This document shows positions 1,088 through 31,750 of a stretch of 31,750 bases of DNA, one piece after another. Numbering within the stretch: position 1 is the stretch's first letter; every line of letters starts with the position of its first letter. This DNA is from a virus. Under the pieces are notes generated by a model that searched no databases, was not told where the DNA came from, and saw only the letters and a program-made list of their open reading frames with translations. The stretch covers positions 1-31,750 of the IMG/VR virus record IMGVR_UViG_3300036944_001259. One strand, written 5' to 3'. The position numbers were made by a program, and so were the translations under genes.

Positions 1088-1092
1088 CCCTT

Positions 1093-10737: not shown

Positions 10738-10740
10738 TCC

Positions 10741-10756
10741 CTCGCCGCCTGTTCAA
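10741..10756 (+). repeat. Intergenic direct repeat, copy 2
   Basis: CTCGCCGCCTGTTCAA matches 15 of 16 bases of copy 1 at 3130-3145. It lies 3 bp after the stop of the giant gene and 35 bp before the next start, the same placement as copy 1. Confidence 0.45.
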
Positions 10757-10791
10757 TTCATCCCACGGATTGACCCTGCCACCCTCCCGGC

Positions 10792-11076: not shown

Positions 11077-11078
11077 CC

Positions 11079-17385: not shown

Positions 17386-17397
17386 GTTCGTGTTACG
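17386..17397 (-). promoter_or_regulatory. CGTAACGCGAAC-type motif, copy 1 (one mismatch)
   Basis: On the minus strand the bases read CGTAACACGAAC, directly after the TGA of the helicase gene and 6 bp before the ATG of the primase-helicase. TTGA precedes it, giving TTGACGTAACACGAAC, very close to copy 3. See the copies at 22170, 26987 and 29816. Confidence 0.55.
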
Positions 17398-18918
17398 TCA
17401 ACGACCCGTGCGAGAGCGACTAAATTTTTCATCAAGGAATGCTTTTGCCTCCTTGGCCGTGCATGTGACGGGGTCGGGGTGGCGGAATTTTTGCAAAAGC
17501 GCGACCTGGCCAACGGTGGCGAGTTTTTCTTTTGAGCGGTTGAACAGGCGGTCGAGCAGCATCGACGCCTCCCCCATCGTGGGTGGGCATTTGATGTGGA
17601 AGCGTTCCAGCGTCGTCCGCTGGCCCTGGGTGGCGGGCTTGGTTTCCCAGCCCATCACCGGGGCATACTCGCGCATCTTAGTGTCCTTCAGCAGAGCGGC
17701 CACGTTCTCAAGCGAAACGTATCGCTCCTTCCGTCGGACGCCCTCAGCAAGTTCGCGGATCAACGCGGCCTCGCGCTCGGCCTCAGCGGTGCCAACAGCC
17801 TCGGCGAGGTCAGTTTCGTCGCCGTTCTCCAGCACCTTCGTGATCGATTCCTCTTCCGCTTCACTCTTGGCGACAAGAGACGCCGCTTTTGCGAGGTTGT
17901 GTTTCCCGTGGAGCCAGAGGAAGTCGAGGAACAGTAGATCCTTCTTGCCAGGGTACAGGCGCGTGCCACGTCCGACCATCTGGGCGAGCAGCCCGCGAGA
18001 CTTCGTCGGACGGAGAACCACGACGCAATCGATCGAGGGTTCGTCATACCCTTCGGTGAGCAGCATCGCGTTACACAGACACCTGAACTCGCCCTTTCCG
18101 TACTTGGCGAGAATTTCGGAGCGGTCTGGAGAATTGCCGTCGACATGGCAGGCCGACACGCCGGCACGCTCGCACGCGGCCACGAATTTCTTGGAGGTTT
18201 CGACCAGCGGTAGAAAGACGAGGATTTTCCGGTCAGGCAGCGTGGCGAGACATTCGGCAATCGTGTCCAGGTAAGGCTCGATGGCGCTGGCGATGCCGCC
18301 TGAGTCGAGATCGCCCGCCAGTTGCGCAATCTGGGAAATGTCGATCTTGAGCGGGATCGACTTCACCATGACCGGCGCAAGATACCCCTGCTTGATCAGG
18401 TCCAGAATCGTGCATTCGTAGGCGAGGTTGTCAAAGAAAGCGGCCAGCGACCGCTTGTCGCCGCGGTCGGGCGTGGCGGTGACTCCGAGCACACGGGCAT
18501 CGAAGTAGTTGATCGTCGTCTGCCACTGGTCAGCGAGCGCGTGGTGGGCCTCGTCCGCTACCACGAGCCCAAAGTGATCTTTCGGCCACGATTCAAGGCG
18601 AGCACGCTGGAGCGTCTGCACGGATGCCACGACAACGTCAGCGTCACGGGTGGCGCGTTGATCCGCCTTCTCGATCTCCACGCACAGGCCCGTGACTTTG
18701 TGGACCTTGTCGGCGGCCTGATTCACCAATTCCTCCCGGTGAGCGAGGATCAGGGATCGCTCGTTGCGCTTTTTATGGAAGCGGTGGGCGATTCCGGCGA
18801 AACAGAGCGTTTTGCCCCCTCCGGTCGGAAGGACTCCGAGTTGTCGCCGGAAGCCGTCGGCAAAGCCCTTGGCGACGGCCGCGATGAAGTTGTTTTGGTA
18901 GGGGCGAAATTCGATCAT
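17398..18918 (-). CDS. Superfamily 2 DEAH helicase
   Basis: A 506 aa protein. The motifs occur in order: Q-like FRPYQ at 5-9, Walker A PTGGGKT (31-37), motif Ia LAHREEL, DEAH (122-125), GVTATP (145-150), and in the second lobe a VSACHVDGNSP / EGYDEPSIDCVVVLRPTKS region and motif VI MVGRGTR. It belongs with the type III restriction/RAD25-like SF2 helicases found in many phages, which unwind or remodel DNA using ATP. It lacks a nuclease domain. The last 130 residues are helical and specific to this branch. It sits between small Zn/HTH genes and the primase-helicase, in one operon. The ATG follows CCCCC and has no Shine-Dalgarno sequence. Confidence 0.92.
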   Translation of the reverse strand: MIEFRPYQNNFIAAVAKGFADGFRRQLGVLPTGGGKTLCFAGIAHRFHKKRNERSLILAHREELVNQAADKVHKVTGLCVEIEKADQRATRDADVVVASVQTLQRARLESWPKDHFGLVVADEAHHALADQWQTTINYFDARVLGVTATPDRGDKRSLAAFFDNLAYECTILDLIKQGYLAPVMVKSIPLKIDISQIAQLAGDLDSGGIASAIEPYLDTIAECLATLPDRKILVFLPLVETSKKFVAACERAGVSACHVDGNSPDRSEILAKYGKGEFRCLCNAMLLTEGYDEPSIDCVVVLRPTKSRGLLAQMVGRGTRLYPGKKDLLFLDFLWLHGKHNLAKAASLVAKSEAEEESITKVLENGDETDLAEAVGTAEAEREAALIRELAEGVRRKERYVSLENVAALLKDTKMREYAPVMGWETKPATQGQRTTLERFHIKCPPTMGEASMLLDRLFNRSKEKLATVGQVALLQKFRHPDPVTCTAKEAKAFLDEKFSRSRTGR

Positions 18919-18927
18919 GGGGGATAA

Positions 18928-19254
18928 TTATTGGAGGCTTGGTTGGGATAATTCACTGTTCTCGCGATATGAGATTTTCCAGTCCACCACGTCGGTTCGC
19001 GTCCCGATCCGGTATTCGTAATGGCCTCCGACCTCGATCCACATCTTGCAAGACGCCTTCCATTCTTCGGGAGTCGTGCCGTATTTTTTGCGGAGCTTGA
19101 AGCCTTCCACTTCCTCCCATTCGGTCCACTTGTCCCACTGCTTGTCATACCATCGCATCTCCAGAAAAGAGCGAGAACAAGCCGTCTCATCCAACCCCTT
19201 CCCGCTTTCTTGTTCGGCGTCGGCTGGCTTCGATTCTATCTGATTTTTTGGCAT
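18928..19254 (-). CDS. Small hydrophilic phage protein of unknown function
   Basis: A 108 aa protein. The first 25 residues are polar and probably disordered; the core (residues 30-100) is rich in Trp, Tyr and charged residues (MRWYDKQWDKWTEWEEVEGF, KASCKMWIEVGGHYEYRIGT). I chose the ATG at 19254 because it lies 4 bp after the upstream stop; the longer frame from 19464 would run through the neighbouring gene. No family recognised. Confidence 0.6.
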   Translation of the reverse strand: MPKNQIESKPADAEQESGKGLDETACSRSFLEMRWYDKQWDKWTEWEEVEGFKLRKKYGTTPEEWKASCKMWIEVGGHYEYRIGTRTDVVDWKISYRENSELSQPSLQ

Positions 19255-19258
19255 AGTC

Positions 19259-19564
19259 TTAGGGCTTCGATTCGGGGTGGATGGACTCAGCGTTCGGCCA
19301 ACCAATAGCATCGAAATCGTGAGAGCATGGTTCATCATCCCCACACACGATGCACTTTTCAGGCTCGTCCCATTCGCGGGGGTCGCCGTATTCCGAGATT
19401 GCGGAAGTTCGGGAGCGTTGCTCGGATTGGCACACAGCGCGAAGCCGTTTCTCTGCCTCTCCATTTTCGGCGCGAACCTCTTGGTTTATCCGTCTAGTTT
19501 CGTCGGAAACAATAGCCGAACAATGAGTGAGAGGCAACGCCTCGGAGTTGGTTGGTGTATTCAT
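19259..19564 (-). CDS. Small protein with a short Cys/His cluster
   Basis: A 101 aa protein. Residues 1-60 are polar and helical (ETRRINQEVRAENGEAEKRL). Near the C-terminus is CIVCGDDEPCSHDFD, a CxxC...CxH cluster that could bind one zinc. There is 3-4 bp between this gene and each neighbour, so it is part of the tightly packed early operon. The function is unknown. Confidence 0.6.
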   Translation of the reverse strand: MNTPTNSEALPLTHCSAIVSDETRRINQEVRAENGEAEKRLRAVCQSEQRSRTSAISEYGDPREWDEPEKCIVCGDDEPCSHDFDAIGWPNAESIHPESKP

Positions 19565-19567
19565 GAT

Positions 19568-19807
19568 TTATTTGGGGCATGCCTCCACAGAGGCGTTCCC
19601 ACCACGCATATTCCAGCGGGCGATTGCCGCTTCTTTGCTGGCACTTGGCCTTTGTTGAATCGCGCACGCTCCACCGAGGTTGATGGTGTTGCGACATACG
19701 ACGCCCCACCACCGTCTTTCACCCATGATCCTGTCACGGGTTCGCTCCGCCTCCTCAAGCTTCACCTCGCCTCCACAAAACGGGCACGGAAGGAGTTTTT
19801 CGCTCAT
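19568..19807 (-). CDS. Lar-like zinc-ribbon protein
   Basis: A 79 aa protein. It starts MSEKLLPCPFCGGEVKLEE, the signature opening of the Lar / restriction-alleviation-like family, followed by a middle Cys pair (VVCRNTINLGGACAIQ) and the typical end S.KEAAIARWNMR. Family members bind zinc, and the prototype moderates type I restriction, but most phage members are only Lar-like by fold. I chose ATG 19807 because the family motif begins there; it overlaps the winged-helix gene by 4 bp. Confidence 0.8.
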   Translation of the reverse strand: MSEKLLPCPFCGGEVKLEEAERTRDRIMGERRWWGVVCRNTINLGGACAIQQRPSASKEAAIARWNMRGGNASVEACPK

Positions 19808-20082
19808 AGTCCAACCTCCCCAACTTTCTCCAATAGTTCCCGCCCATCCGGCGTGATCTCGACCCACTGCTTGCGACGGTCGGACAGCGAGCGAACGCGC
19901 ACAGCAAGCCCGCTTTCTCCAAGTCGGTCCACAATGTCAGTCGCCATCGCGGTTGACACCCCGACTTTTCCAGCAAGCTCGCTGATCAAGAGGGATGTTT
20001 TTGAAAGCTCCTCCAAGGCGATTGCCTGGTTGAAGCTGGTGATCCCCCGCTCGCGCAGGATGGTGATGATGGCGGCGATCAT
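19804..20082 (-). CDS. Winged-helix (MarR-like) DNA-binding protein
   Basis: A 92 aa protein. Residues 20-90 carry the MarR-type winged helix: LLISELAGKVGVSTAMATDIVDRLGESGLAVRVR forms the recognition helices and SDRRKQWVEITPDGRELLEKV the wing and following helix. It lacks the long dimerisation helices of full MarR proteins. It overlaps both neighbours by 4 bp. A transcriptional role in the early operon is likely; the target is unknown. Confidence 0.8.
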   Translation of the reverse strand: MIAAIITILRERGITSFNQAIALEELSKTSLLISELAGKVGVSTAMATDIVDRLGESGLAVRVRSLSDRRKQWVEITPDGRELLEKVGEVGL

Positions 20083-20513
20083 ACCTCTTCATCGTAAGGG
20101 GTGAAATTTCCAAGCAGGTAGTTCCGCAAAACCGAGACCGCGACCGTTGGGCAGTTGATGACGCGGACGAAATACCCGTCGGCGTGCAACTCCTCCATGC
20201 GGTCCCACTGCTCGGCCTTGATGGCTCCGGTGGAGGTCTTCAGTTCGATCCAGCATCCGTGGTAGCCGTTGCGCGGGACTGGAAGACAAAGGTCGGGGAC
20301 GCCACTCGTGACTCCCTCGGCCTTCATCTTCTTGGCGACCGCCATGTGACGCTTGCCGCCGTTCGGGACCGCAAACAACTTCAGGATGTCAGGCACCTCG
20401 AAGGCGAACAGCAGCACGTCGGAGATGACCTTGATCTGCATGTCGGACTCCTTCCCCTGCCACGCCTCCCTGAAGGGCTTGCGGATGTCGATGATGCCTC
20501 TACTGCTTCCCAT
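20079..20513 (-). CDS. VRR-NUC domain nuclease
   Basis: A 144 aa protein. The VRR-NUC pattern is clear: LFAVPNGGKRH (47-57), AEGVTSGVPDLCLPVP with D74, then WIELKT with E90-x-K92, and EQWDRMEELHADGYFVRV with Q102. This is the PD-(D/E)XK core of a structure-dependent or Holliday-type nuclease found in phage replication operons. The ATG at 20513 overlaps the upstream gene by 14 bp; an internal ATG at 20441 would still retain the fold. It is one of two PD-(D/E)XK nucleases encoded close together. Confidence 0.9.
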   Translation of the reverse strand: MGSSRGIIDIRKPFREAWQGKESDMQIKVISDVLLFAFEVPDILKLFAVPNGGKRHMAVAKKMKAEGVTSGVPDLCLPVPRNGYHGCWIELKTSTGAIKAEQWDRMEELHADGYFVRVINCPTVAVSVLRNYLLGNFTPYDEEV

Positions 20514-20742
20514 GGTGGCGCGGATGTTTGGTGGCTGCGGCGGAGATCGCCTGATCGGGGTCGCGGAGCTGGCTCTTGTGTCGCCATACCTCGTGACCAT
20601 TCCCGACGCGAACGACGGCATAGTTCGTGCCGCGGAATTGAGTGATCGCACGTTCAAGCAATTCCTGCTCGTCGGCGGTGTAGGTGGAGGTCACGGATTT
20701 GTAGCCGGCGGCCTGGGCCTCTTCTTGACTGAATGTCTTCAT
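20500..20742 (-). CDS. Small phage protein of unknown function
   Basis: An 80 aa protein, highly polar, with a central EQELLERAITQFRGTNYAVVRVGNGHEVWRHKSQL that may form a helix and two strands. It overlaps the exonuclease start by 4 bp and the VRR-NUC start by 14 bp, which supports it being translated as part of the operon. No family recognised. The ATG at 20742 is taken rather than the longer frame to 20808, which would overlap the exonuclease by 70 bp. Confidence 0.6.
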   Translation of the reverse strand: MKTFSQEEAQAAGYKSVTSTYTADEQELLERAITQFRGTNYAVVRVGNGHEVWRHKSQLRDPDQAISAAATKHPRHHGKQ

Positions 20743-21539
20743 CGTGGGGTTGGGGCGTAGTCCTTTTCGTAGCACCAGAGTCCAAAGGCATGCTTGAAGG
20801 CGTGCCATGCCTGCTCGCCGTTGTCCCAGACCTTCGCCTGCACCTTGTCGGGGCGGTCGGACGGGATGATGAGCGAGACTAGCAGCGGGAGATTTCCAGC
20901 GGCGTCGCGGTCGTTGTCAGCGTAGGCGGCAAGCTGCATCGGCCATTCCTTGTAGAACGTGCCCTTGGGCTTGTTTTTGAGCTTCTGCGATTTGAAGTCG
21001 ATGATCGCCAGTCGCTCACGCCCTTCGTGGCGGATGATCGCCTTGAGGTCGCGGCGTCCGGCGAATCCCATCGGGTGAACGATCTTGTCCTCAGCGGCAA
21101 TTACCTCGACGACATTCTCGCGAAACCACTCGTCGTAGCCTGCCACGTAGTCGAGGATCTCCCCCTTCCCCATGAAGCACCCGAGCGTGTTGCGCTGCTC
21201 GCATTGCTCATGGAGGAGTTCGCCCCATTCGGCGGCCTCGCGCCCGATGCGTTCGGACTCGTCGGCAATCCGGGTGTGCCAGTCGGATTCAGCCTCGCCG
21301 GGATTCCTTGGGGTGTTGAGAGCGGCCATGATCGCGTTGTCCTGCATCCAGGTGATGAGCGCGGGCTTGGCCTTGACGGCGAGGATGTTGGTGACGGACG
21401 GAACAAGGTCGAGCTTGCGGGCGTCGGTGACGATCGTGGGCCGTGGGAGCCCGGTCGTCTTGGCGATGACCGTGTGGCATGGCGTGCCGTCGCGGTGATA
21501 CCAGTGCGACGACTTTTCGGCGCGGTTGATGAGGGCCAT
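20739..21539 (-). CDS. PD-(D/E)XK exonuclease (RecB/Cas4-like)
   Basis: A 266 aa protein. The nuclease core reads GFAGRRDLKAII (D164), LAIIDFKSQK (D181-x-K183) and EWPMQLAAYADN (Q202, Y206), the RecB-family order. A helical region around 95-140 with GELLHEQCE is typical of phage Cas4/RecB-like exonucleases. It probably resects DNA ends for the phage recombination system together with the SSB-like and ATPase proteins upstream. It lies 2 bp from its upstream neighbour and overlaps the next gene by 4 bp. Confidence 0.88.
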   Translation of the reverse strand: MALINRAEKSSHWYHRDGTPCHTVIAKTTGLPRPTIVTDARKLDLVPSVTNILAVKAKPALITWMQDNAIMAALNTPRNPGEAESDWHTRIADESERIGREAAEWGELLHEQCEQRNTLGCFMGKGEILDYVAGYDEWFRENVVEVIAAEDKIVHPMGFAGRRDLKAIIRHEGRERLAIIDFKSQKLKNKPKGTFYKEWPMQLAAYADNDRDAAGNLPLLVSLIIPSDRPDKVQAKVWDNGEQAWHAFKHAFGLWCYEKDYAPTPR

Positions 21540-21541
21540 GG

Positions 21542-22168
21542 TTATTTCAGGTCAGATTTCCGAAACACCACGCCCACGCAGTAGAGTTCGCCATCCTCAA
21601 GGATGCGGAACTCCGCGTGCGGCATCGTCAGCTTGTAGTGCCAGGACGGCTTGCGCCCATCGGGCATCTCTTTGTCCCACACGGCCTCGATCTGGTTGAC
21701 GTGCGGGCGGGACATCGTTCCGTCGGCCACAAGCTTGTCGATGGCGTTCAACGCGCCCTCGTCGAAGATTTTGCCGGACTTGGAGAAGTAGGTGACGCCG
21801 CCTCCGCTTTCCTCAAACATCGCACCCCGGAACTCGGTGCAGTCGTCCGAGTAGCCGAAGACGATGATGAATCCCTTATCCTTGGCCTCTGCCTCAAGCT
21901 CCTTCGTGGTCTCGTTGCCGGTTTCCCGGCCGTCGAGCTTGGCGGCGAACTCTTCAAGCTCGGCCATTCCAGGATCAGGCGGCGGGAGGTAGATGCTCGG
22001 GTAGGAGACAACCAACCGGAATTTCCCGGCGGAGATTGGGGCCAGCCCGGAGTCGAGGGCCTGCTTCAGTGTTGCCGCGTCGTTTCCGATCAGCAAGAAG
22101 TCGGGTCCGTCTTCGGTGAATCGGATGAGGCAGCCTGTGCCTGTGAGTCCGTTGGTGGTAGTGCTCAT
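21542..22168 (-). CDS. Conserved phage protein of unknown function
   Basis: A 208 aa soluble protein. A central alpha/beta region (KGFIIVFGYSDDCTEFRGAMFEE) with two Cys/Asp residues is followed by AIDKLVADGT and a C-terminal part HYKLTMPHAEFRILEDGELYCVGVVF that looks like a small beta domain. Proteins of this form are often found beside phage exonucleases; I do not know their role. The motif CGTAACGCGAAC ends 1 bp before the ATG (copy 2), which leaves no space for a Shine-Dalgarno sequence. Confidence 0.75.
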   Translation of the reverse strand: MSTTTNGLTGTGCLIRFTEDGPDFLLIGNDAATLKQALDSGLAPISAGKFRLVVSYPSIYLPPPDPGMAELEEFAAKLDGRETGNETTKELEAEAKDKGFIIVFGYSDDCTEFRGAMFEESGGGVTYFSKSGKIFDEGALNAIDKLVADGTMSRPHVNQIEAVWDKEMPDGRKPSWHYKLTMPHAEFRILEDGELYCVGVVFRKSDLK

Positions 22169-22169
22169 G

Positions 22170-22181
22170 GTTCGCGTTACG
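22170..22181 (-). promoter_or_regulatory. CGTAACGCGAAC motif, copy 2
   Basis: On the minus strand CGTAACGCGAAC lies 1 bp before the ATG of the 208 aa gene, in the 32-bp gap after the preceding gene. It is preceded by CAA instead of the TGA of copies 1 and 3, so the motif is not simply a by-product of a stop codon. Confidence 0.6.
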
Positions 22182-22200
22182 TTGATGGTTTGTCCAAGAG

Positions 22201-22479
22201 TTAGAGACCGTTGATGGCCTTGATGACGGCGGCGAGGTCGAGCGTCTCGACGTTCTGCTTGAGGATCTCGACCTCACGCTCCTCAGTGGAGGTGGTGTTC
22301 GGCGCGTAGCCTTTGATCTCCTTGAGTGGGTTCTCTTTCAGGAAGGAATCTCCCTTTGGGCTGTCGTAGACCGAGCCTTGAAGCTCCTTGGGAGTCCACG
22401 GGCGCTGTTCGAGCGTGACCCAGTTTCCTTGGCGCTCGACGCGCTTCTCTTCGACTTTGGTGATGGTGATGCGATACAT
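22201..22479 (-). CDS. Small phage protein of unknown function
   Basis: A 92 aa protein. A beta-strand-rich start (MYRITITKVEEKRVERQGNWVTLEQR) leads to a Lys/Glu-rich helical end (EREVEILKQNVETLDLAAVIKAI). It is compact and charged, with no Cys. The start ATG 22479 is preceded by CAACAAC, with no Shine-Dalgarno sequence. It lies 26 bp after the SbcC-like gene and 32 bp before the next; it is probably part of the recombination block but has no recognised family. Confidence 0.7.
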   Translation of the reverse strand: MYRITITKVEEKRVERQGNWVTLEQRPWTPKELQGSVYDSPKGDSFLKENPLKEIKGYAPNTTSTEEREVEILKQNVETLDLAAVIKAINGL

Positions 22480-22505
22480 GATGTTGTTGATAGTTGGGAT
22501 GCGAT

Positions 22506-23795
22506 TCACTCCGCCGAAACAGCCTGCCCGTCCTCAAACGCAACCGCGCCATCGACGATGTGCAGCCCGGTTTCTCCCGGCTCCTCTTGGAACTTCTCGA
22601 CCCAGAGTTGGTAATCTCGGTCTTTCGCGAGATCGACGATGAGCTTGAAGTTTGCCCGGTTGATCAGAGCGCCCTCGCGAATCAGGATGATCTTGAGTTC
22701 GGGGTTCTGTGCCATGGCCACCAGCGTCGAGATCCGAATCTGCTCGGCGGTGCTGAGTTGCTTGAAGAACGTGCCGTTGTAGAGCACGCCGTCGTCAGTG
22801 AGTTCCAGCCCGTCGAGGGGGAGGTCGGCATTCTTGACCGCCTCGATCTTCGCCTCGTCGATTTCCTCGATCCGTCGCGTGAGCGTTTCGTATTTGGCGC
22901 GGAGTTCCGTCACCTCCTTCGACTTCGCCTGATAGGCGGCTTTGTTGCGCACGGCCGCGTTGGTCTTATCGACCTGCTCGATGGCTTCGCGGGCGGCAGC
23001 GAGAGCTTCGGGGGTGGGGGCGGCGGCGAGCGCGTTGGTGAGCGCCCTGTCCATTTCCGTGACCATTTCTCCGGCTTTGCTCGCGACTGCTCTGGCAGAT
23101 TCGAGGAGAGCAAGAAGCCTGGAGACTTCGGCATCGGCCGCGCGCGCTTTTTCTTCCGCGTCCTGGACCTGACGGCGGGCAGTGGAAACGAAAGCATCTG
23201 CCTCCTCCAATTCCCTCAAAGACGCCATCAGCGCACTTGCCGACAACTCCTCCGCTGGAACCCCCTCGCCGGGTTCGATCATCCCGTCGAGCTGCGCCTT
23301 GGCATCCTTTCCGTGCCGGCCAACGTCGGTGCGCTCGTTGAAGAATCCGACACGCCGCGCATCCAACTCAGTGAAGTCGAGGCCTGCCGCCTTCTTCAGG
23401 GCTTCGACCTGGGGCTTGGGAGCGAGCTCCGCAAACGCAACCGGGTCGAAGGCGTAATTGCCAAGAAGGCCATTCAGGAACGTCTGAGGCTTTTCGACCT
23501 TCACGCCACGGGCATCGGTGAGGGTCAGGTAGCGCCCCTTCTTCGTGATGTTGATGTCGAGGTTGTATTCGGCCTTGTCGGCACCGAGCACGATCTTGAT
23601 CGACCCACTCGGGCGTCCGTGGCGGATAGGATCGTCGAGGCCCGTGTTGGAGAGGGCGTAAACGATAGAGTCGAGCACCGAGCTTTTCCCTTGGGCGTTG
23701 TCGCCGGTGAGAATGATGGGCTCGTTGGTGGCCGGGTCGATTTCAATGGCGCGGATGCGCTTGACGTCTGCGATTTCGAGATGGAGGAGTTTCAT
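22506..23795 (-). CDS. RecF/SbcC-like ABC-type ATPase
   Basis: A 429 aa protein. Walker A GDNAQGKSS (31-39) follows the RecF/SMC start MKLLHLEIADVKRIRAIEI; the middle (about 180-330) is a Gln/Ala/Glu-rich coiled coil with a VSTARRQVQDAEEKARAADAE run; the C-terminal part has the signature LSTAEQIR (ABC C-loop) and Walker B LKIILIREG. It resembles a shortened SbcC/Rad50 head with a small coiled coil. The family couples ATP to DNA-end processing, and the neighbouring PD-(D/E)XK exonuclease may be its nuclease partner (inference). ATG 23795 keeps the MKLLHLEI start and avoids a 132-bp extension of low coding quality. Confidence 0.88.
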   Translation of the reverse strand: MKLLHLEIADVKRIRAIEIDPATNEPIILTGDNAQGKSSVLDSIVYALSNTGLDDPIRHGRPSGSIKIVLGADKAEYNLDINITKKGRYLTLTDARGVKVEKPQTFLNGLLGNYAFDPVAFAELAPKPQVEALKKAAGLDFTELDARRVGFFNERTDVGRHGKDAKAQLDGMIEPGEGVPAEELSASALMASLRELEEADAFVSTARRQVQDAEEKARAADAEVSRLLALLESARAVASKAGEMVTEMDRALTNALAAAPTPEALAAAREAIEQVDKTNAAVRNKAAYQAKSKEVTELRAKYETLTRRIEEIDEAKIEAVKNADLPLDGLELTDDGVLYNGTFFKQLSTAEQIRISTLVAMAQNPELKIILIREGALINRANFKLIVDLAKDRDYQLWVEKFQEEPGETGLHIVDGAVAFEDGQAVSAE

Positions 23796-23902
23796 GGATA
23801 TAGTTCTGACTTTTGTAGGTGAAATTGTGCCGTCTCTCCGGCTGTCACGGTGGTTGTCATTTTTGAGGGCCAGTCGCACACCGTTTGGGAAGGCCGCAAA
23901 TT

Positions 23903-24280
23903 TCAGGCCCGTAGTGGCTTTTTCCACTTCTGGGCTGGCTGGCGTTGCGCCAGGCGACCGTCGTTTTTCCAGTCGCCATGTTTGCCCTGCTGGCAGGCTT
24001 CAAGGAACAACTTGAATTGGAGTCCCTGCTTGACGCAGCGGGTCCAGATCATGCGATTGAGGGTGACTTTCCCTCCAAGCTCGCGCTTCTTCCGGCGAAG
24101 TGACGCCTTGATGCGCTGGCGACGGGTGGGCTTACGTGGCTTGGAGTGATGCTTGCGGCCTTGTGGCTCATGTGGTGGCTCCAAGACGATTTCTCGGCTC
24201 GATTGACCAAAGGCATTTCCAACGCTGGCGAGGCAGGCTATTGCTGCGGCAAGGATGCCGCTCCTGTTTCTGAATCTCAT
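23903..24280 (-). CDS. Predicted secreted, strongly basic small protein
   Basis: A 125 aa protein. Residues 1-25 (MRFRNRSGILAAAIACLASVGNAFG) look like a Sec signal peptide with a cleavage-type NAFG end. The mature part is highly basic (KHHSKPRKPTRRQRIKASLRRKKRELGG) with a Trp/Cys pair (MIWTRC). This is an odd item inside an early replication operon. It could be an envelope-modifying or superinfection-exclusion factor, or the hydrophobic start may be coincidental and the protein a DNA-binding peptide. Its upstream neighbour stops 108 bp away on one side and lies 11 bp away on the other, compatible with a real gene; codon quality is moderate. Confidence 0.55.
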   Translation of the reverse strand: MRFRNRSGILAAAIACLASVGNAFGQSSREIVLEPPHEPQGRKHHSKPRKPTRRQRIKASLRRKKRELGGKVTLNRMIWTRCVKQGLQFKLFLEACQQGKHGDWKNDGRLAQRQPAQKWKKPLRA

Positions 24281-24291
24281 GGCCGTAGGGG

Positions 24292-24777
24292 TCAGAATGG
24301 AATGTCGTCCTCTTCCAGTTTCTCCTCAGCCACCGGAGGCGCTGACGCCTTGGTGGTCTTGGACGACTCATAGACGTAGCGGTCGAGGTCGTTGCGCTCG
24401 TACTGCTTGCCTGACTGCTTGGCCGTGGCCATCTCCACCTTGACGGTGCAGCGGCCTTCGCGGGTCATGAGCCACTTCTTGAAGTCGCCGGACGTGAAAT
24501 CGATCGCCTTCTCGATGCCGCCAGGGCAGAGCGACTTGAGGAACGAGTTGACGCGCCACTCGGTGGCCTCGGTGAAGACCAGCCAGTCCTTGAGCTTCAC
24601 GACTCCGGTTTGGCGGTCGCCGACCTCGATGTCGATTGGGATCATCGGGTTGCCATTTCTGGACTGCTCTTCGTCGTAAACGGCGACAACGCGGAATGGG
24701 TATTCGCCTTTCGGCAGGCACACGAACTCCTTTTCGACGGGTTCGCTGTATTTGAAGTTGGATGGGGATTGGCTCAT
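24292..24777 (-). CDS. SSB-like DNA-binding protein with acidic C-terminal tip
   Basis: A 161 aa protein. Residues 15-125 look like a beta barrel (FVCLPKGEYPFRVVAVYDEE... IPIDIEVGDRQTGVVKLKDWLVF... GRCTVKVEMATAKQSGKQYERNDLDRYVY), as in DUF669/OB-fold phage proteins. The last residues EEDDIPF match the acidic tip of bacterial SSB, which recruits partner enzymes. It is probably a single-strand-binding protein for the adjacent ATPase and exonuclease. It overlaps the DUF2303 gene by 4 bp. Family placement is by fold pattern and tail, not by a catalytic motif. Confidence 0.75.
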   Translation of the reverse strand: MSQSPSNFKYSEPVEKEFVCLPKGEYPFRVVAVYDEEQSRNGNPMIPIDIEVGDRQTGVVKLKDWLVFTEATEWRVNSFLKSLCPGGIEKAIDFTSGDFKKWLMTREGRCTVKVEMATAKQSGKQYERNDLDRYVYESSKTTKASAPPVAEEKLEEDDIPF

Positions 24778-25598
24778 GCCTTGTGTTGGTCGAGGATTTC
24801 GAGTGGGGTTTTGGTGATGCAGCCGTCGGTGACGGGGATGTCAATCGACTCGGCTTTGAAGCGTTCGCGGACGGAATCGACGATGGCCCGGAAAGCCACG
24901 TCAGCGACCTTGTCGGCATGCAGCAGCTTCACCTCAAAGGAGAGCGCGCCGTTGTCGATGCGGTAGCGGAACAGCGCCTTGATCTCCATCGTGGTGTCCT
25001 CTTCCGCGCCGAAGAAAATCGGCACGCGAAGTTTGATTTCCGATGGCACGCGCTTGTCGCCAGCCGACTTGGCATCGGTGGTTTCCTCCCACTGAAGTTG
25101 CCGGTCGCCATTGGCCAGCACGACGACGTTGGTGAACTTCACGTTGCGCATGCCGGAGATCGTGGTGACGATCGTGAGCATTTCGGCGGCGGATGGCTCC
25201 TGAATGGTGTCCAGATGCTCCTCGACGAACTCGGCGAAATGCCGCTGGCTGATGGCCTTGCCGCTGATCGCCAGCCAATCCCGCCAGTCGTCGGTGATCC
25301 TGAGCGGCATGACGGCGCGGTGGTTGGCCCATCCGCCATCCCCCTCCTCCACGCTTGACTCGTTCCAGTCGTGGATCAGGGTGAGCTTCTGCTGGGAGCG
25401 CGAGGCGAAGAGCCGCGAGCGATAAGATTTGAAATCCTCGGCATAGGCGACAAGCGACTCGATAGAGTCAACGTCGATGTGGCCGCGATGTGTTGGGGTT
25501 TCCGCAAATCGCTCCAGCGGAATCAGGCGGTTGTTGATGGCGATGGCATTGCCGACGATGCGCGGTTGCGCGGCTTCGAGTAGTGGAGTAAGGTCCAT
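24774..25598 (-). CDS. DUF2303-family phage protein
   Basis: A 274 aa protein. The layout matches DUF2303 (YfdQ-like): an IERFAETPTHRG-type region (residues 29-40), the VDSIESLVAYAEDFKS stretch, DWNESSVEEGDGGWANHRAVM, and the ISQRHFAEFVEEHLDTI segment with its final beta half. DUF2303 genes recur next to phage SSB and recombinase genes, but no biochemical function is established. It lies 4 bp from the downstream small gene and overlaps the SSB-like gene by 4 bp. Confidence 0.85.
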   Translation of the reverse strand: MDLTPLLEAAQPRIVGNAIAINNRLIPLERFAETPTHRGHIDVDSIESLVAYAEDFKSYRSRLFASRSQQKLTLIHDWNESSVEEGDGGWANHRAVMPLRITDDWRDWLAISGKAISQRHFAEFVEEHLDTIQEPSAAEMLTIVTTISGMRNVKFTNVVVLANGDRQLQWEETTDAKSAGDKRVPSEIKLRVPIFFGAEEDTTMEIKALFRYRIDNGALSFEVKLLHADKVADVAFRAIVDSVRERFKAESIDIPVTDGCITKTPLEILDQHKA

Positions 25599-25602
25599 GG
25601 GA

Positions 25603-25962
25603 TCAGGCGTCGTTGGTTCCGGTTTTGGTGCCCTTCACGACACGGGGCATGTCCCCGAGTTTGAGTTGGGCCTGGTTGGGGTTTTCGCGCTGGAGGTCGC
25701 CGTCTTCGGTGACGAACAGCATCGAGGGTGAGACGTCCGGGATCGGGCACTTGGGTGCCACGGTGCCGGTGATTTCCACTTGGCCGGAGTCACGGCCGCG
25801 TGGCTTGATTTCGAGAGTCAGGGTCAATGCCCCTTTCTTTCCGGTTTCGCGCACGGCCTTGAGGACGTTGCACAACTCTTCTGAGGCTTGGCCGGCGAGA
25901 TCGCCGTATCCAACCTCGTTGACAGCCTTCATGAAAAGGCAGGACGTGGGGTCAGTTTCCAT
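25603..25962 (-). CDS. Conserved small phage protein beside the recombination ATPase
   Basis: A 119 aa protein, conserved in form with phage proteins carrying 'ASEELCNVLKAV.ETGKKGALTLTLEIKP' and a closing 'FVTEDGDLQRENPNQ'. It is predicted to be an alpha helix followed by a beta sheet; no metal or nucleotide motif is seen. It overlaps the P-loop ATPase gene by 11 bp and so is likely translated with it. The function is unknown; its position in a recombination operon suggests a DNA-metabolism accessory. Confidence 0.8.
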   Translation of the reverse strand: METDPTSCLFMKAVNEVGYGDLAGQASEELCNVLKAVRETGKKGALTLTLEIKPRGRDSGQVEITGTVAPKCPIPDVSPSMLFVTEDGDLQRENPNQAQLKLGDMPRVVKGTKTGTNDA

Positions 25963-26923
25963 CGGTGGTTTCTGTTGGTGATTCGGCCTCTTCAGCCGTG
26001 GGATTGGAAAACTCTTTGACCGCGGCGAGGAAGGCGTCGCGCTTGGCGGCGACCTGTTTCCGGTAGGTGGCTTTCAGGTCGGTGAGCTGCTGGCCCTCGG
26101 TCAGCCAGCGGATCGAAATGAGGTAGGCGAGCGCCTGCGCCTCGATGCCCTTGAAGATGACCGCCATTTCGTCTTCACTGACGACCGGCTTGGCGGTTTC
26201 CGTGGCAGCAGCAAATGCCTCCCACGAAAGATCCATCTTGAAAGGCAGGGCGAAGCGGGACTTGGCGGCAAACGCGGGGCGTTCCTCGGTGAACATGATC
26301 CGGCGACCGTCACCAAACGCCCGGGCTTTCTTCGCGCCCTTCTCCTTGCTGGTCTTGATCTCGTAGGTGGCGAAGAACATGCAGTCCATCGCCTCGATCC
26401 AGAGGGCGCTCGCCTGCTCGTTCATTTTGATGATGTGCTTGTCAAAACGCTCGCCCTCGTAGGGATCATCGAACGCCTTGATCTTGGAGTGCCCCAAGCA
26501 AATGACGCTCATCTTATTGCGGAGGGTCTTGAGTGTCTGGAAGAACACGACCCACTCCTCGGCAGCTCGCACATAGCCCTTGCCAAATCCGCCGTCGACT
26601 TCCTCGATGGAGGACACGCGGGCCTCCTTGATGATGTGCGCCCACAGCAGCGGCTCCAGACCGTTGACGGTGTCGATGACGAGGGTTTCGTATTCGTGGC
26701 TCTCGGTGGTGAGCGCGTGAATCGCGGCTTTCACTTCCGCCCATGTCTTCGGGATCGGGAAGCTGGCGGCGTCGATCATCCCGAGTCCGTCGTCGGTCCC
26801 GAGGAAAATGGGCTTGGGGGCGGATGCGGCAAAGGTCGATTTGCCGACTCCGCCAGGGCCGTAGAGCCCGATGAGGTGGGGGCGCTTTTTCGCGCCTTTC
26901 TGGATTTGATTGAGGATGCTCAT
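25952..26923 (-). CDS. P-loop ATPase of the Sak4/AAA_24 type (recombination)
   Basis: A 323 aa protein. Walker A GPGGVGKST (22-30) follows HLIGLY; Walker B is YETLVIDTV, with TVNGLEPLLW behind it, and VICLGHSKIKAFDDP supplies a sensor-like region. The rest is helical. Phage ATPases of this kind (Sak4-like, AAA_24) act in single-strand annealing or pairing together with an SSB, which is encoded here three genes downstream. The ATG 26923 places the fold 15 residues before Walker A and is preferred to 26944. A terminator-like hairpin lies 20 bp upstream, so expression may be attenuated. Confidence 0.85.
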   Translation of the reverse strand: MSILNQIQKGAKKRPHLIGLYGPGGVGKSTFAASAPKPIFLGTDDGLGMIDAASFPIPKTWAEVKAAIHALTTESHEYETLVIDTVNGLEPLLWAHIIKEARVSSIEEVDGGFGKGYVRAAEEWVVFFQTLKTLRNKMSVICLGHSKIKAFDDPYEGERFDKHIIKMNEQASALWIEAMDCMFFATYEIKTSKEKGAKKARAFGDGRRIMFTEERPAFAAKSRFALPFKMDLSWEAFAAATETAKPVVSEDEMAVIFKGIEAQALAYLISIRWLTEGQQLTDLKATYRKQVAAKRDAFLAAVKEFSNPTAEEAESPTETTDGN

Positions 26924-26942
26924 GTGATGAGAAGTTGCGCCC

Positions 26943-26969
26943 AAAAAACCCGACCCCCTCGCGAGGGTC
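26943..26969 (-). terminator. Rho-independent-type terminator ahead of the recombination ATPase
   Basis: On the minus strand GACCC (26969-26965), loop TCGCGAGG, GGGTC (26956-26952) is followed after GGG by six T residues (26948-26943). The stem is only 5 bp but all GC save one pair. It lies downstream of the small membrane-protein gene and 20 bp upstream of the ATPase start, in the same direction of transcription. It could end the short regulatory operon or attenuate read-through. Confidence 0.5.
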
Positions 26970-26986
26970 AGGTGATTCGGTGCGGT

Positions 26987-26998
26987 GTTCGCGTTACG
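26987..26998 (-). promoter_or_regulatory. CGTAACGCGAAC motif, copy 3
   Basis: On the minus strand CGTAACGCGAAC sits in the gap after the membrane-protein gene, whose TGA forms part of the preceding GTTGA. The ATPase start is 63 bp downstream and the terminator-like hairpin lies between. Confidence 0.6.
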
Positions 26999-27205
26999 TC
27001 AACGCCTGGAGCGATAGTAAGCGACCTTACGATGGTGCTTCATCGACCAGAGAGAAAAGCCCGCGCTAACAAGGAAAGAAGCAGCGGCGGCCCACGGTGC
27101 CGTCATCAAGACGAGAAAGCCGGGAATCGCGAACGCGAACGCGGCCAGAAGAAGCAACCTTGCGCAGAAGCGGTGGTTCTTCTCCATGAGTTCGTAGTAG
27201 GTCAC
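26999..27205 (-). CDS. Small membrane protein
   Basis: A 68 aa protein with two hydrophobic segments (about residues 15-33, LLLLAAFAFAIPGFLVLMT, and 36-53) and a basic tail (KHHRKVAYYRSRR). The start is the GTG at 27205, overlapping the upstream stop by 4 bp (GTGA) and preceded by GGGAGGTG, the only good Shine-Dalgarno sequence I noticed in the window. The GTG at 27229 is a weaker alternative. Candidate roles include a superinfection-exclusion factor or a holin-like protein; none is supported beyond the topology. Confidence 0.65.
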   Translation of the reverse strand: MTYYELMEKNHRFCARLLLLAAFAFAIPGFLVLMTAPWAAAASFLVSAGFSLWSMKHHRKVAYYRSRR

Positions 27206-27420
27206 TTGACACCTCCCTTCTTCACGCACTTCGGGCAGTTTCCCAAGCGCCAGCCCTTGCGGGTCATTTCGAGTTTAACGGCCTTGTCGATCTTGTCGCC
27301 AATCTCGGATTTCTCCGCCGTGACGACTGCCGGGGTAATCACAAGGTCCAGCTTGCAAGTCCGGCAGTGCCTCACGGCCCCCGCCCTGACAGTGAAAAGA
27401 TTTCCAACGATGGTGCTCAT
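27202..27420 (-). CDS. Small zinc-finger-like protein
   Basis: A 72 aa protein with CRTC (19-22) and CPKC (62-65) separated by a Lys/Asp-rich helix, a CxxC...CxxC arrangement able to hold one zinc. It overlaps both neighbours by 4 bp. Probably a DNA- or protein-binding regulator; no family recognised. Confidence 0.65.
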   Translation of the reverse strand: MSTIVGNLFTVRAGAVRHCRTCKLDLVITPAVVTAEKSEIGDKIDKAVKLEMTRKGWRLGNCPKCVKKGGVK

Positions 27421-27671
27421 GCTTCGTTTTCTGCGAGGTGCTGTTTGATGACAGATGCCCGGTAGCGATAAACCTTGCCGGGGATGATGGTGATTTTCGG
27501 GATCTGGAGATTGGTCAGGGTGTTGGCCGAGACATCCAGGATGCCACAGACCTGAGCCGGAGAAAGGAGATCAAGATTGTCGCGGTGCTCGGCAAGCAGG
27601 TGCTCGATCGTTCCGGTAATGACCCGGTCAATGACCTCCTTGCGCTCGGTCGGTGTCAGGTCGAGGTGCAT
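27417..27671 (-). CDS. Helix-turn-helix excisionase-like protein
   Basis: An 84 aa protein. Residues 35-75 (LDLLSPAQVCGILDVSANTLTNLQIPKITIIPGKVYRYRASVIKQHL) follow the MerR/HTH_17 pattern typical of excisionases and small phage regulators: helix, turn, recognition helix, short wing, final helix. The ATG at 27671 is used; it overlaps the upstream RHH stop by 1 bp (TGATG). Excision or regulation are both possible; the integrase is 0.9 kb away on the other strand. Confidence 0.75.
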   Translation of the reverse strand: MHLDLTPTERKEVIDRVITGTIEHLLAEHRDNLDLLSPAQVCGILDVSANTLTNLQIPKITIIPGKVYRYRASVIKQHLAENEA

Positions 27672-27865
27672 CAGACGGATGCCTTGAGCTTTGAGCGGAC
27701 GAGTTGCTCCAGCCATGCCGATGCGGAAAGACCAGCATTAAAAGCCGCTTTTTGAGTCGCTTCCCAAATAGCTGGATCAATCGTGATTGATGGCCTCGTT
27801 TTGAGGATCTTCTTCGGCGGTTGTCCTCGTCCTCTTTTGGGTTTAGGGGTCGCTGGTTTGTTCAT
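27671..27865 (-). CDS. Ribbon-helix-helix regulator (leftward)
   Basis: A 64 aa protein. A basic start (KPKRGRGQPPKKILKTR) leads to the strand PSITI and helices DPAIWEATQKAAFNAGLSASAWLEQLVRSKL, i.e. the ribbon-helix-helix fold of Arc/CopG-type repressors. It is the first gene of the leftward operon; a 7-bp perfect inverted repeat lies 2-20 bp upstream of its ATG, a likely autoregulatory operator. Another RHH gene is transcribed away from it 117 bp to the right. ATG 27865 is preferred over the GTG at 27886, which would sit inside the inverted repeat. Confidence 0.82.
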   Translation of the reverse strand: MNKPATPKPKRGRGQPPKKILKTRPSITIDPAIWEATQKAAFNAGLSASAWLEQLVRSKLKASV

Positions 27866-27867
27866 GC

Positions 27868-27886
27868 GTGGGTATTTCTTACCCAC
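27868..27886. promoter_or_regulatory. Operator-like inverted repeat upstream of the leftward RHH gene
   Basis: GTGGGTA (27868-27874), 5-bp spacer, TACCCAC (27880-27886) is perfect over 7 bp, and a further ACCCAC half-site follows at 27891-27896. It lies 2 bp upstream of the RHH start codon, in an A/T-rich gap. A repeat this tight in front of an RHH gene is the usual place for autoregulation; binding is inferred. Confidence 0.6.
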
Positions 27887-27908
27887 TAAAAACCCACCGA
27901 CAATAAAA

Positions 27909-27917
27909 TTCTAATAG
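27909..27917 (+). promoter_or_regulatory. TTCTAATAG half-site in the divergent control region
   Basis: TTCTAATAG resembles the TTCTAACAG half-sites of the perfect inverted repeat at 28223-28267 (8 of 9 bases). It lies in the AT-rich gap between the two divergent RHH genes, where promoters for both should sit. Confidence 0.4.
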
Positions 27918-27981
27918 GGGAATAAAAATACCTACGAAAAATGCACTTGTGATGCTGTTTCACCCATGCGATCATCAAGCC

Positions 27982-28209
27982 ATGAGCGAAGAACAACAAA
28001 AGCCAGGACGTCCAAAAACGGGCTCCAAGAAGATTCGCCCAAACTTCTCATTATCGCCCGAGACCTTTGAAATGCTGAAGGCCGAGGCAGAACGAAAAGA
28101 CGTCAGCATGTCGGCGCTTTTGACGCTTTGGATCAGAGAAAAAATCGGGCGTGATCTGAGGGTTGTAGAGTCTCGAGAAGCAAAGTCATCCCGCTCAGGT
28201 CAAGCATGA
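27982..28209 (+). CDS. Ribbon-helix-helix regulator (rightward)
   Basis: A 75 aa protein. The start KPGRPKTGSKKIRPNFSLSPETFEMLKAEAERKDVSMSALLTLWIREKI carries a basic arm, the strand RPNFSLS and two helices, i.e. a ribbon-helix-helix fold like CopG/Arc. It is transcribed away from the leftward RHH gene. The next rightward genes are the membrane protein and the integrase. Together with the leftward RHH it could form a two-repressor switch, as Arc and Mnt do in P22. ATG 27982 is preferred to the ATG at 27949, which adds 11 residues of unlikely sequence. Confidence 0.8.
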   Translation: MSEEQQKPGRPKTGSKKIRPNFSLSPETFEMLKAEAERKDVSMSALLTLWIREKIGRDLRVVESREAKSSRSGQA

Positions 28210-28222
28210 ATTTCCAATCGGA

Positions 28223-28267
28223 TTCTAACAGATAACGCCGATTTGTCCCGTAAAATTTCTGTTAGAA
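28223..28267. promoter_or_regulatory. Long-spaced perfect inverted repeat upstream of the integrase unit
   Basis: TTCTAACAGA (28223-28232) and TCTGTTAGAA (28258-28267) are perfect 10-bp inverted copies with a 25-bp spacer. They occupy most of the 70-bp gap between the rightward RHH gene and the membrane-protein gene ahead of the integrase. The spacing puts the centres 35 bp apart, compatible with a dimer or tetramer of a small repressor bound on one face. A run of A follows, but no terminator T-run is in the sense direction. Confidence 0.6.
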
Positions 28268-28279
28268 AAAACGCACCCC

Positions 28280-28537
28280 ATGAAAGTTTTCCTTTGCCTC
28301 ATTGTGTCGGGGATTGGCTTCGCGGGTTGCATCTATGCCGCCAGCGCCATTGCGTTGCTCTGCCGCCGTGAATGGAGGGACGGCACATCGGCACTTGCCC
28401 TGTGCCTCATCCCGCTCGGGGTTTATGCCGTCGCCTGGCGCATCTTGCCGCTGGAGAACTGGCTGATCCTTCCCGGTGCGCTCGCCGCAATTTTCAGCGC
28501 AATTACATTTGCCTTGGTCCTCAAAAATGGAGCCTGA
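28280..28537 (+). CDS. Small membrane protein upstream of the integrase
   Basis: An 85 aa protein with three hydrophobic segments (about 2-28, 37-53, 61-81) joined by short charged loops (CRREWRDG; LENW), i.e. a three-helix membrane protein. The stop lies 2 bp before the integrase ATG, so the two are likely co-transcribed. The inverted repeat at 28223-28267 lies directly upstream. Superinfection exclusion or an inhibitor role is a common reason for such lysogeny-linked membrane proteins; there is no direct evidence here. Confidence 0.7.
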   Translation: MKVFLCLIVSGIGFAGCIYAASAIALLCRREWRDGTSALALCLIPLGVYAVAWRILPLENWLILPGALAAIFSAITFALVLKNGA

Positions 28538-28539
28538 CC

Positions 28540-29712
28540 ATGAAAGTCAAATTCGGAAGTGTGGAGCTTTCCGGCTACCCGTGGAAACACCACTCCGGGA
28601 AGACCTACTTCCGGTTCGATTGGTTCGATGGCAGGCGCAAGCGCCACATCACGCGGGCGAGTGAAGCCAAGGCGAAGAAGGCCGCTTACGAGAAGGCGAA
28701 GGAACTGCATCGGCAGACAAAGGATCTCAACGCGCTGCCCGATCACCAGCAACGCGCCATCCAGCGCCTGCTCGACGTCGATCCGTCGCTTCAGGTCATC
28801 GACGAGTTCTTGCTATGGCGGGCGCGAGAAAGGCCAGAGACCGTCATCGAGGACGTCATTGCCGCCTTCATGGAGTCGGTGGCGCTGAACAAGGGTCAAT
28901 CCGCCCAGAATGAAAAGACGCTCAAGGTTCACACAGGGGCGCTCCTCAAGGCCTTCTCGGGTCGCTCGGTGTCGTCGATCTCAACCGCCGAGCTTAACGC
29001 TCACATCGGCCGAAATCCGAAGCACTCGCCGCGCACCCGGGCAAATTGCCGTGGGGCCCTGATCCGGATCTGGAATTGGTGCCAGGCCAACGGCCACATT
29101 CCCCAGGGCGAGAAGACTGCCGCGGCACTGACGATGGCTCCGATCGTAGCTCGCAAGACGCCGGAGACTTACTCGCCCGACGAGCTGGCGGAAATGCTCC
29201 TCTACGTCCAGCCGCGCTACTTTCCATGGCTGGCTGCATGCGCCTTCGGTGGATTTCGGACGGATGAGATTTACCCGCTCGCCGGCGGCACCAAGTCGCC
29301 CCTCGACTGGTCGGATTTCAAATGGGATCGAGACGTCGTTGTGGTGCGCCCTGAAACAGGCAAGACCGGTCGGCGCATCGTCCCGATCCTCCCGGCGCTC
29401 CGGCGGTGGCTGGAGCCTATCAAAAAGCCGTCCGGACCGGTTGGCGAAGGAGTGGCCCCGTCGATGAAACCAGGGCGCGGCAGGCTGCCCCAGACGGTTC
29501 TCCTCGGCGACCTCGTGGGCGGATGGCGACCAAACGCCCTGCGTCACTCGTGGATCTCCTACCGGGCCGCGCTTGTCGGCATCGGTCAGACCTCGATGGA
29601 GGCCGGGAACAGCGAGAGCGAGGCGAAGCGTTCCTACAACGACGCGATGTCACGCGCCGAAGCTGAGGCCTGGTTCTCACTCCAGCCGGAGAACTTTGGA
29701 GAACCTGCCTGA
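28540..29712 (+). CDS. int: Tyrosine site-specific integrase
   Basis: A 390 aa protein. Residues 1-45 are a basic, strand-rich arm-type region; residues 100-195 are a core-binding domain; residues 210-370 are catalytic. R240 (GGFRTDEI), K275 (PETGKTGRRIVPI), R335 (NALRHSW) and Y366 (KRSYND) match the tyrosine recombinase order. The box II histidine is N332 and the second His is N357 (AGNSES), both Asn. This NxxR / GN form is common in one integrase group and does not by itself mean inactivity. An attachment core lies 16 bp after the stop, fitting a role in tRNA-gene integration. ATG 28540; GGAG 9 bp upstream may act as a Shine-Dalgarno sequence. Confidence 0.9.
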   Translation: MKVKFGSVELSGYPWKHHSGKTYFRFDWFDGRRKRHITRASEAKAKKAAYEKAKELHRQTKDLNALPDHQQRAIQRLLDVDPSLQVIDEFLLWRARERPETVIEDVIAAFMESVALNKGQSAQNEKTLKVHTGALLKAFSGRSVSSISTAELNAHIGRNPKHSPRTRANCRGALIRIWNWCQANGHIPQGEKTAAALTMAPIVARKTPETYSPDELAEMLLYVQPRYFPWLAACAFGGFRTDEIYPLAGGTKSPLDWSDFKWDRDVVVVRPETGKTGRRIVPILPALRRWLEPIKKPSGPVGEGVAPSMKPGRGRLPQTVLLGDLVGGWRPNALRHSWISYRAALVGIGQTSMEAGNSESEAKRSYNDAMSRAEAEAWFSLQPENFGEPA

Positions 29713-29728
29713 AAATCACTGGAAATAC

Positions 29729-29753
29729 GGTGGGCCCGGTGGGGTTCGAACCC
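29729..29753 (-). other. Phage attachment core: 3' end of a tRNA gene
   Basis: On the minus strand the bases read as a tRNA tail: GGG, T-loop TTCGAAC, T-stem 3' strand CCCAC, acceptor 3' strand CGGGCCC, discriminator A. The 5' half is absent: before GGG the bases that should pair with the last two T-stem positions do not (CA against AC), and no anticodon arm is found further on. A tRNA tail right after an integrase gene is the normal attP/attL core. Acceptor GGGCCCG/CGGGCCC is shared by several tRNAs, so the target tRNA is not named. Confidence 0.8.
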
Positions 29754-29767
29754 TGTTTCCCCGAATT

Positions 29768-29827
29768 GCTCGCGTTGCGTGAATGATTCTAGAGTCCTTT
29801 ACTGAAACCTTTTGGCGTAACGCGAAC
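29768..29827. promoter_or_regulatory. Inverted pair of CGTAACGCGAAC-type motifs beside the attachment core
   Basis: GCTCGCGTTGCG (29768-29779; reverse complement CGCAACGCGAGC, 10 of 12 matches) and CGTAACGCGAAC (29816-29827, 12 of 12) face away from each other with a 36-bp spacer, starting 15 bp beyond the tRNA tail. They may be integrase arm sites or a regulatory pair. The stretch 29754-29880 holds no gene that I can see apart from these. Confidence 0.5.
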
Positions 29828-31650: not shown

Positions 31651-31744
31651 GCAGACCAACCGGCGACCGCTCCGAGTTCCGAGTTTTCAGGTGTTAGGAT
31701 GGTTGGTGAGAGTATCGGCGCTCGCCCCCGTCGCCGGTGGCTGC
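31651..31744. repeat. Wide inverted repeat in the gap at the right edge
   Basis: ACCGGCGAC (31659-31667) and GTCGCCGGT (31730-31738) are perfect 9-bp inverted copies, extended outside by GCAG (31651-31654) and CTGC (31741-31744). Within the 62-bp interior a second pairing, ACCAACC (31656-31662) with GGTTGGT, competes. It lies upstream of the 95 aa gene and may continue beyond the window. It is a second palindromic gap in the same gene cluster as 30469-30581, with unrelated sequence. Confidence 0.45.
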
Positions 31745-31750
31745 GCATTG

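Follow-up and report, generated by a model that had tools for sequence, protein, structure and literature searches.

Why does a 12-base sequence recur, in almost the same letters, at scattered points of a phage genome fragment? The question is raised by the linear virus record IMGVR_UViG_3300036944_001259, whose 31,750 bases (a 31.75-kb fragment, called the window throughout) were analysed as a whole, and in which the original prediction had listed five copies of such a motif. The 12-mer proves to be the core of a longer, oriented site, of which about 15 lie in G001, a record with most of the window in common; the sites are confined to the phage, and related phages carry them at conserved positions in lineage-specific letters. 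The explanation we favour, with roughly even chances of being right, is that a transcription regulator encoded by the phage binds them, as dispersed, oriented sites set out in the manner of operators and stoperators.

Results

All five copies were recovered at their predicted positions and strands. The 12-mer is exact at 22170-22181 (minus), 26987-26998 (minus) and 29816-29827 (plus), has one mismatch at 17386-17397 (minus) and two at 29768-29779 (minus). Those associated with genes, three in number, are followed by an ATG after 1, 6 and 63 nucleotides (nt). A longer common core had also been predicted, and the copies do extend 5' to GTTGA or ATCAA, giving a unit of about 17 bp, GTTGACGTAACGCGAAC, which forms the imperfect palindrome GTTnnCGT-A-ACGnnAAC.

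With at most two mismatches the 12-mer matches the window seven times against 2.5 expected, a count reached in 1 of 100 shuffles. Three other 12-mers are also present three times, of the kind that codon-biased coding sequence yields, and unbiased discovery of upstream motifs in the window alone scored 10^-2.4, as did a random control. Taken by itself, the window makes a modest case for repetition, suggestive rather than decisive. The repetition is accepted as real because the counts from G001 (IMGVR_UViG_3300043103_000208, 59,470 bases) settle the question: an 18-mer at up to three mismatches gave 10 matches against 0.013 expected from permuted patterns, the genome-wide scan with a position weight matrix (PWM) that the original prediction had called for gave 17 hits scoring at least 15.4 with the next hit at 10.4, and upstream motif discovery reached p ~10^-10.6. 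A copy number beyond chance, as claimed for the window, is thus decisively seen in G001. Both kinds of scan (18-mer and PWM) found no copy in the window's unique left 11.3 kb.

The motif is the phage's own, since in the Verrucomicrobiota genome bin G263, which includes a related phage contig (G263p), exact copies are found solely on that contig; one-mismatch copies elsewhere in the bin stay at the level of a reversed-pattern control. In 388 Verrucomicrobiota genomes a 16-base version likewise occurred at control level, and these two counts rule out a host motif. A widespread element was also rejected: 16- and 17-mer scans of viral and genome collections returned scattered hits at or below a rough chance estimate, and those inspected had no second good copy and look like chance matches. 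One Verrucomicrobiales hit (L040) appears to be coding sequence. Searching INPHARED at the DNA level with site 1 found nothing, and no known RNA family was found in the window by an Rfam search.

Six records supplied the 61 sites, all with scores of 14.5 or more, whose placement was counted. Up to 30 nt before a start codon there were 36 sites in sense and 4 in antisense, a count that is partly circular, since proximity to starts had guided the choice of some sites in the combined PWM. The circularity bears less on the G001 18-mer scan, the orientation inside genes and the comparison of orthologs. Elsewhere between genes lay 11 of the 61. The motif is not equally dense in coding sequence: only 10 sites fall inside genes, all of them in sense. 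Codon shuffling would yield about 1.4 sense and 0.85 antisense hits there in total, and the in-gene copies are therefore mostly real and directional.

The start-associated sites fall into two spacing classes. Class-1 sites contain TTGAC (or TCGAC, TTCAC); from their end to the start codon there are as a rule 18-20 nt and no more than 22-23, which puts TTGAC about 35 nt upstream of that codon (35-36 nt at most of about 20 sites). Sites of this class are seen in late genes of the related phages. By information content no strong conserved -10 element accompanies them. Hexamers resembling a -10 element are nevertheless better than at other genes (p = 0.004; post hoc, scored with consensus frequencies), and xATxxT or TAxxxT was found at 8 of 20 class-1 sites against 21 of 276 other genes (p = 2e-4, again post hoc). 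The position of TTGAC and these hexamers, together with the rarity of Shine-Dalgarno sequences (7 of 64 starts in G001), suggest that class-1 sites are promoters of leaderless or nearly leaderless transcripts. A plain sigma-70 promoter with a strong -10 was rejected, given no conserved -10 and weak enrichment only. In a distant relative (L168:6713-6743), promoters pair TTGACA with TAATGG or TATAGA across a 17-bp spacer, and one of these stands only 7 nt upstream of an ATG, which is consistent with leaderless starts. Class-2 sites have CCAAC or TCAAC, lack TTGAC and stand 0-12 nt before starts inside operons, some overlapping the upstream stop codon; the window sites at 22170 and 17386 have this spacing.

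Other sites have no start codon to serve. One lies about 80-90 nt upstream of the tRNA-Met gene in both G263p and G006, and G408 and G409 have one just upstream of a tRNA-like sequence that we read as tRNA-Met although ARAGORN did not call it. Beside the integrase of both G001 and G409, an inverted pair of sites, about 45-60 bp apart and with the inner member weak in G001, flanks the region adjoining a tRNA-like att core, the probable phage attachment site attP. ARAGORN found no complete tRNA in the window. Because sites stand at tRNA-Met genes and attP without a start codon, a role at the DNA level is indicated rather than a purely translational one. The motif had been tied to early genes; it is not, as late genes, tRNA genes and attP carry it as well. 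Apparent phage transfer-messenger RNA (tmRNA) genes were seen near the terminase in G001 (L009:11415-11766, minus) and in G408/G409 (L219:3270-3697, plus; L221:3067-3494, minus), in the latter two beside a tRNA-Arg.

Related phages have their own variants of the motif (ACGAAACGTGAA, ACAAAACGCGAA, ACAGAACATCAA). De novo discovery upstream of genes, made without the G001 motif, returned a different but related start-associated motif for each phage: GACGTAACRCGAA in G001, CAACGAAACGTGAA in G011, CACAGAACATCAA in G006, CAACGAAACATCAAG in L137/L146 and CCCACAAAACGTC in L140; the G263p variant is TYGACAAAACGCGAA. Larger related records contain 9-15 motif hits each, against a chance background of 1-3. 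Site positions are kept at orthologous genes while the letters change. A gene of about 340-520 amino acids (aa) following the tRNA/tmRNA region has a site 18-20 nt before its start codon in 6 of 6 records, the portal gene has one in 5 of 7, and a gene of about 340 aa before the capsid gene has one in 6 of 7; in the seventh, G001, TTGACA occupies the -35 position of this last gene and an inverted site covers the -10 region.

The sites in the window and the features around them are collected in Table 1.

Table 1. Motif sites and associated features in the window.
Feature	Sequence	Position	Strand	Context
Site 1	GTTGACGTAACGCGAAC	26987..27003	-	Between stop codon of small membrane-protein gene and terminator-like hairpin; 63 nt before ATG of Sak4-like ATPase; counterpart in G001 at 5408-5424
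Site 2 (class 2)	ATCAACGTAACGCGAAC	22170..22186	-	1 nt before ATG of 208-aa gene
Site 3	GTTGACGTAACACGAAC	17386..17402	-	Overlaps helicase gene stop codon; 6 nt before primase-helicase ATG
Site 4 (weaker)	GTTGCCGAAACGCGAGC	15231..15247	-	23 nt before helix-turn-helix gene 14818-15207; absent from original prediction
Site 5	TTTGGCGTAACGCGAAC	29811..29827	+	Outer half of inverted pair at attP; arrangement recurs in G409
Site 6 (weak)	ATTCACGCAACGCGAGC	29768..29784	-	Inner half of inverted pair; adjoins tRNA-like att core
Terminator-like hairpin with T6		26943..26972	-	Directly downstream of site 1
Sak4-like single-stranded DNA annealing ATPase gene		25952..26923	-	Downstream of site 1
208-aa gene (phrog_25176)		21542..22168	-	Downstream of site 2
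Primase-helicase gene		15268..17379	-	Downstream of site 3
129-aa XRE-type helix-turn-helix protein, candidate regulator		14818..15207	-	Last early-operon gene; preceded by site 4
84-aa HTH_17/excisionase-like protein, second candidate		27417..27671	-	Early operon near integrase; orthologs in G409 and G011 (32-33% identical)
Probable attP core		29729..29755	-	tRNA 3'-half-like sequence adjoining integrase stop codon; read from sequence
Tyrosine integrase gene		28372..29712	+	Adjoins attP; start may be 28540

Material and relatives

Window and G001 have positions 11277-31750 of the window in common at 99.9% identity and diverge beyond them. Unrelated late modules stand beside this common 20.5 kb (window 1-11276; G001 from 21134 onward), and the break coincides with the start of a tail-type gene (window 11073-13022); it reflects either natural mosaicism or a chimeric assembly. 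The 74-bp stretch at the right end of the window (31677-31750) is present twice in G001, near both ends (L007:661-734 and L009:19397-19470), which suggests a circular or redundant genome. Further relatives were recruited through terminase and portal searches at about 57-69% identity, the portals of related phages being 57-65% identical. The contig G263p was found with a portal profile; it is the sole clue to the host, which, judged from this relative rather than from the window phage, is probably a member of the Verrucomicrobiota. G408 and G409 are closely related to each other, so ortholog counts are counts of records whose lineages are not fully independent, and gene models are simple predictions made for this analysis.

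Two window proteins, encoded at 3184-10737 (2517 aa) and 1084-3129 (681 aa), matched nothing in PHROGs or INPHARED and nothing convincingly in Pfam. A giant protein of about 4850 aa in G001 (L008:11398 to L009:5962, minus) has helicase and methyltransferase domains, and similar giants occur in G263p, G011 and G006.

Discussion

What could such a set of sites do? We infer that a protein binds them and that transcription is affected. At class-1 sites a recognition sequence would be joined to the -35 element of a phage promoter, with transcription beginning at the start codon or close to it; a regulator that covers the -35 element and spacer would there control initiation. At class-2 sites the motif, placed in the gap before a gene within an operon, would act as an orientation-dependent road-block, as cluster A stoperators do, silencing a prophage or tuning expression. 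At the attP pair the same protein may touch integration and excision or block transcription through att, and the drift in sequence between phages would arise as regulator and sites co-evolve, in the way of immunity specificities. Among the functions originally offered, an operator fits best and a promoter is half right, given TTGAC about 35 nt before class-1 starts, though not as an early promoter. Antitermination was rejected, as a convincing terminator hairpin follows one site only (26987).

The best candidate for the binder is the XRE-type helix-turn-helix (HTH) protein encoded at 14818-15207. It matches the HTH_31 profile, and its predicted fold (mean predicted local distance difference test score 79, about 90 in the DNA-binding half) most resembles XRE-type repressors, at E-values that are weak (0.004 at best). 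Orthologs are present in G263p and G409 (41% and 33% identity over about 112 aa), the former matching sigma-70 region 4 with an E-value of 6e-6, above cut-off. The site before this gene ends 23 nt from the start in the window and G001 and 4 nt from it in G409 (score 13.2), and G263p has none. Besides the HTH_17-type protein of Table 1, ribbon-helix-helix-like proteins near the integrase (such as that at 27949-28209), read from sequence and with weak PHROG matches, are further candidates. In G011 (L091:18102-18193) and G409 (L221:9837-9920), a gene read from sequence as a 59-aa HTH_17-like protein has two inverted sites upstream, like an operator region. An open reading frame before Sak4 in G263p, suspected of being excisionase-like, reads as a membrane protein.

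Several points weigh against a regulator with dispersed binding sites, the circularity of the start-window count among them. Class-1 sites have weak -10 elements, tested post hoc, and the 0-12 nt spacing of class 2 is equally expected of a translational element. Dyad symmetry, clear in G001, G011 and G408, is weak in G263p and G006. No more than one or two sites were seen in each of the clade members G007 and G008 and the fragments L148 and L185, and de novo discovery found no motif in G009 and none in more distant relatives, so that not every phage of the group has the system. The binder, finally, may be any of the candidates named above, acting by repression or by activation.

Could the motif instead be a phage-specific promoter element, one that a phage activator or sigma-like factor turns on, perhaps the HTH protein in the role of a late-gene activator? 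The fixed position of TTGAC at most class-1 sites and the weak -10-like hexamers would agree with this, as would sites before tRNA genes and at divergent gene starts, the place of the HTH gene at the end of the early operon and the sigma-70 region 4 match of its G263p ortholog. Class-2 sites, however, abut starts without TTGAC, so that transcripts from a promoter there would begin within the gene; the reading hardly accounts for the attP pair and the mid-gene copies; no RNA polymerase gene was recognised; and the HTH model resembles, if weakly, XRE repressors and not a sigma factor. We consider this explanation rather doubtful. Promoters of a phage RNA polymerase were rejected as well, since searches of PHROGs, Pfam and PDB sequences found no polymerase in the giant protein, a dedicated N4-type comparison not being part of these searches. 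An element read in the mRNA for translation, like the start-associated sequence (SAS) of cluster K phages, is unlikely: the sense orientation of most sites within 30 nt of a start codon, the strictly sense in-gene copies and the scarcity of Shine-Dalgarno sequences speak for it, whereas tRNA genes and attP offer no start codon, inverted copies precede a 335-aa gene in G001 and the 59-aa HTH_17 genes, and by inspection no RNA hairpin is kept across sites. As read from the PWM hits, a G-to-A change at position 12 breaks such a hairpin in several sites.

If the HTH_17 gene near the integrase encoded a dual excisionase and regulator of the P2 Cox or 186 Apl type, sites for this protein would account for the conserved inverted pair at attP, for HTH_17-type genes near the start of the early operon and for the two inverted sites upstream of the 59-aa genes. 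Known factors of this type bind direct repeats one helix turn (about 10-11 bp) apart, with the same kind of site at attP and promoters (PMC7498355). The sites found here do occur at attP, in G001 and G409, but as inverted pairs spaced well beyond that, and are otherwise mostly single and dispersed, about 15 across the genome; we hold this origin improbable. Chance repetition or a host-wide motif, for which the three other recurring 12-mers might be cited, is already contradicted by the enrichment in G001, the orthologous positions and the control-level counts in the G263 bin and Verrucomicrobiota, and is scarcely credible.

The closest parallel to the favoured regulator sites is the set of sites in cluster A mycobacteriophages (L5, Bxb1), which follow the direction of transcription, are found mostly between genes and in part within promoters, and differ in consensus from subcluster to subcluster (PMC9283540, PMC6550527, PMC3029335). 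As there, a short asymmetric site is present in many copies genome-wide, its orientation follows transcription (36:4 upstream, 10:0 in genes) and its consensus differs between related lineages; gaps are clear here, and promoters are suggested by the position of TTGAC and a weak -10. Cluster A genomes have 24-34 sites of 13 bp, whereas those described here number about 15, measure 16-17 bp and show partial dyad symmetry, many being fused to a -35 element at a fixed distance from the start codon, with an inverted pair at attP; the one host clue, moreover, points to Verrucomicrobiota and not to Actinobacteria. Judged by the arrangement of its sites, the motif may work like an operator/stoperator set, and we do not file it as a member of that family, which is defined by an immunity repressor that occupies the site and halts elongation.

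SAS and extended SAS of cluster K come in 11-19 asymmetric copies just before starts, in one orientation, and are absent from the host; SAS has a Shine-Dalgarno core and is common to the subclusters; its usual place is 3-7 nt upstream of starts, and only in the non-structural half of the genome (PMC3203893). The present motif resembles it in its start-proximal asymmetric copies, single orientation and absence from the host. It differs in that only class 2 is close to starts, class 1 standing at 18-22 nt and the tRNA and attP sites lacking a start codon; in that TTGACGTAACGCGAAC has no Shine-Dalgarno AGGAG core; and in its phage-specific sequence, two spacing classes, inclusion of late and tRNA genes and marking of attP.

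Conclusion

It is possible, though we would call it less than probable, that these phages, poor in Shine-Dalgarno sequences and probably infecting Verrucomicrobiota, have a stoperator-like code independent of the mycobacteriophages, in which one regulator uses the sites as -35 elements of leaderless promoters, as road-blocks and as attP accessory sites, and which has split rapidly into phage-private dialects while the positions stayed fixed. If the sites do belong to a phage-encoded regulator, they would add to the mycobacteriophage example another, apparently independent, genome-wide set of directional operators. Natural dialects of the site, five or more at orthologous positions, would then bear on how a regulator and fifteen or more sites shift specificity together, a problem approached so far mainly in mycobacteriophages. 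Promoters and immunity groups of these poorly known phages would, besides, become traceable from sequence.

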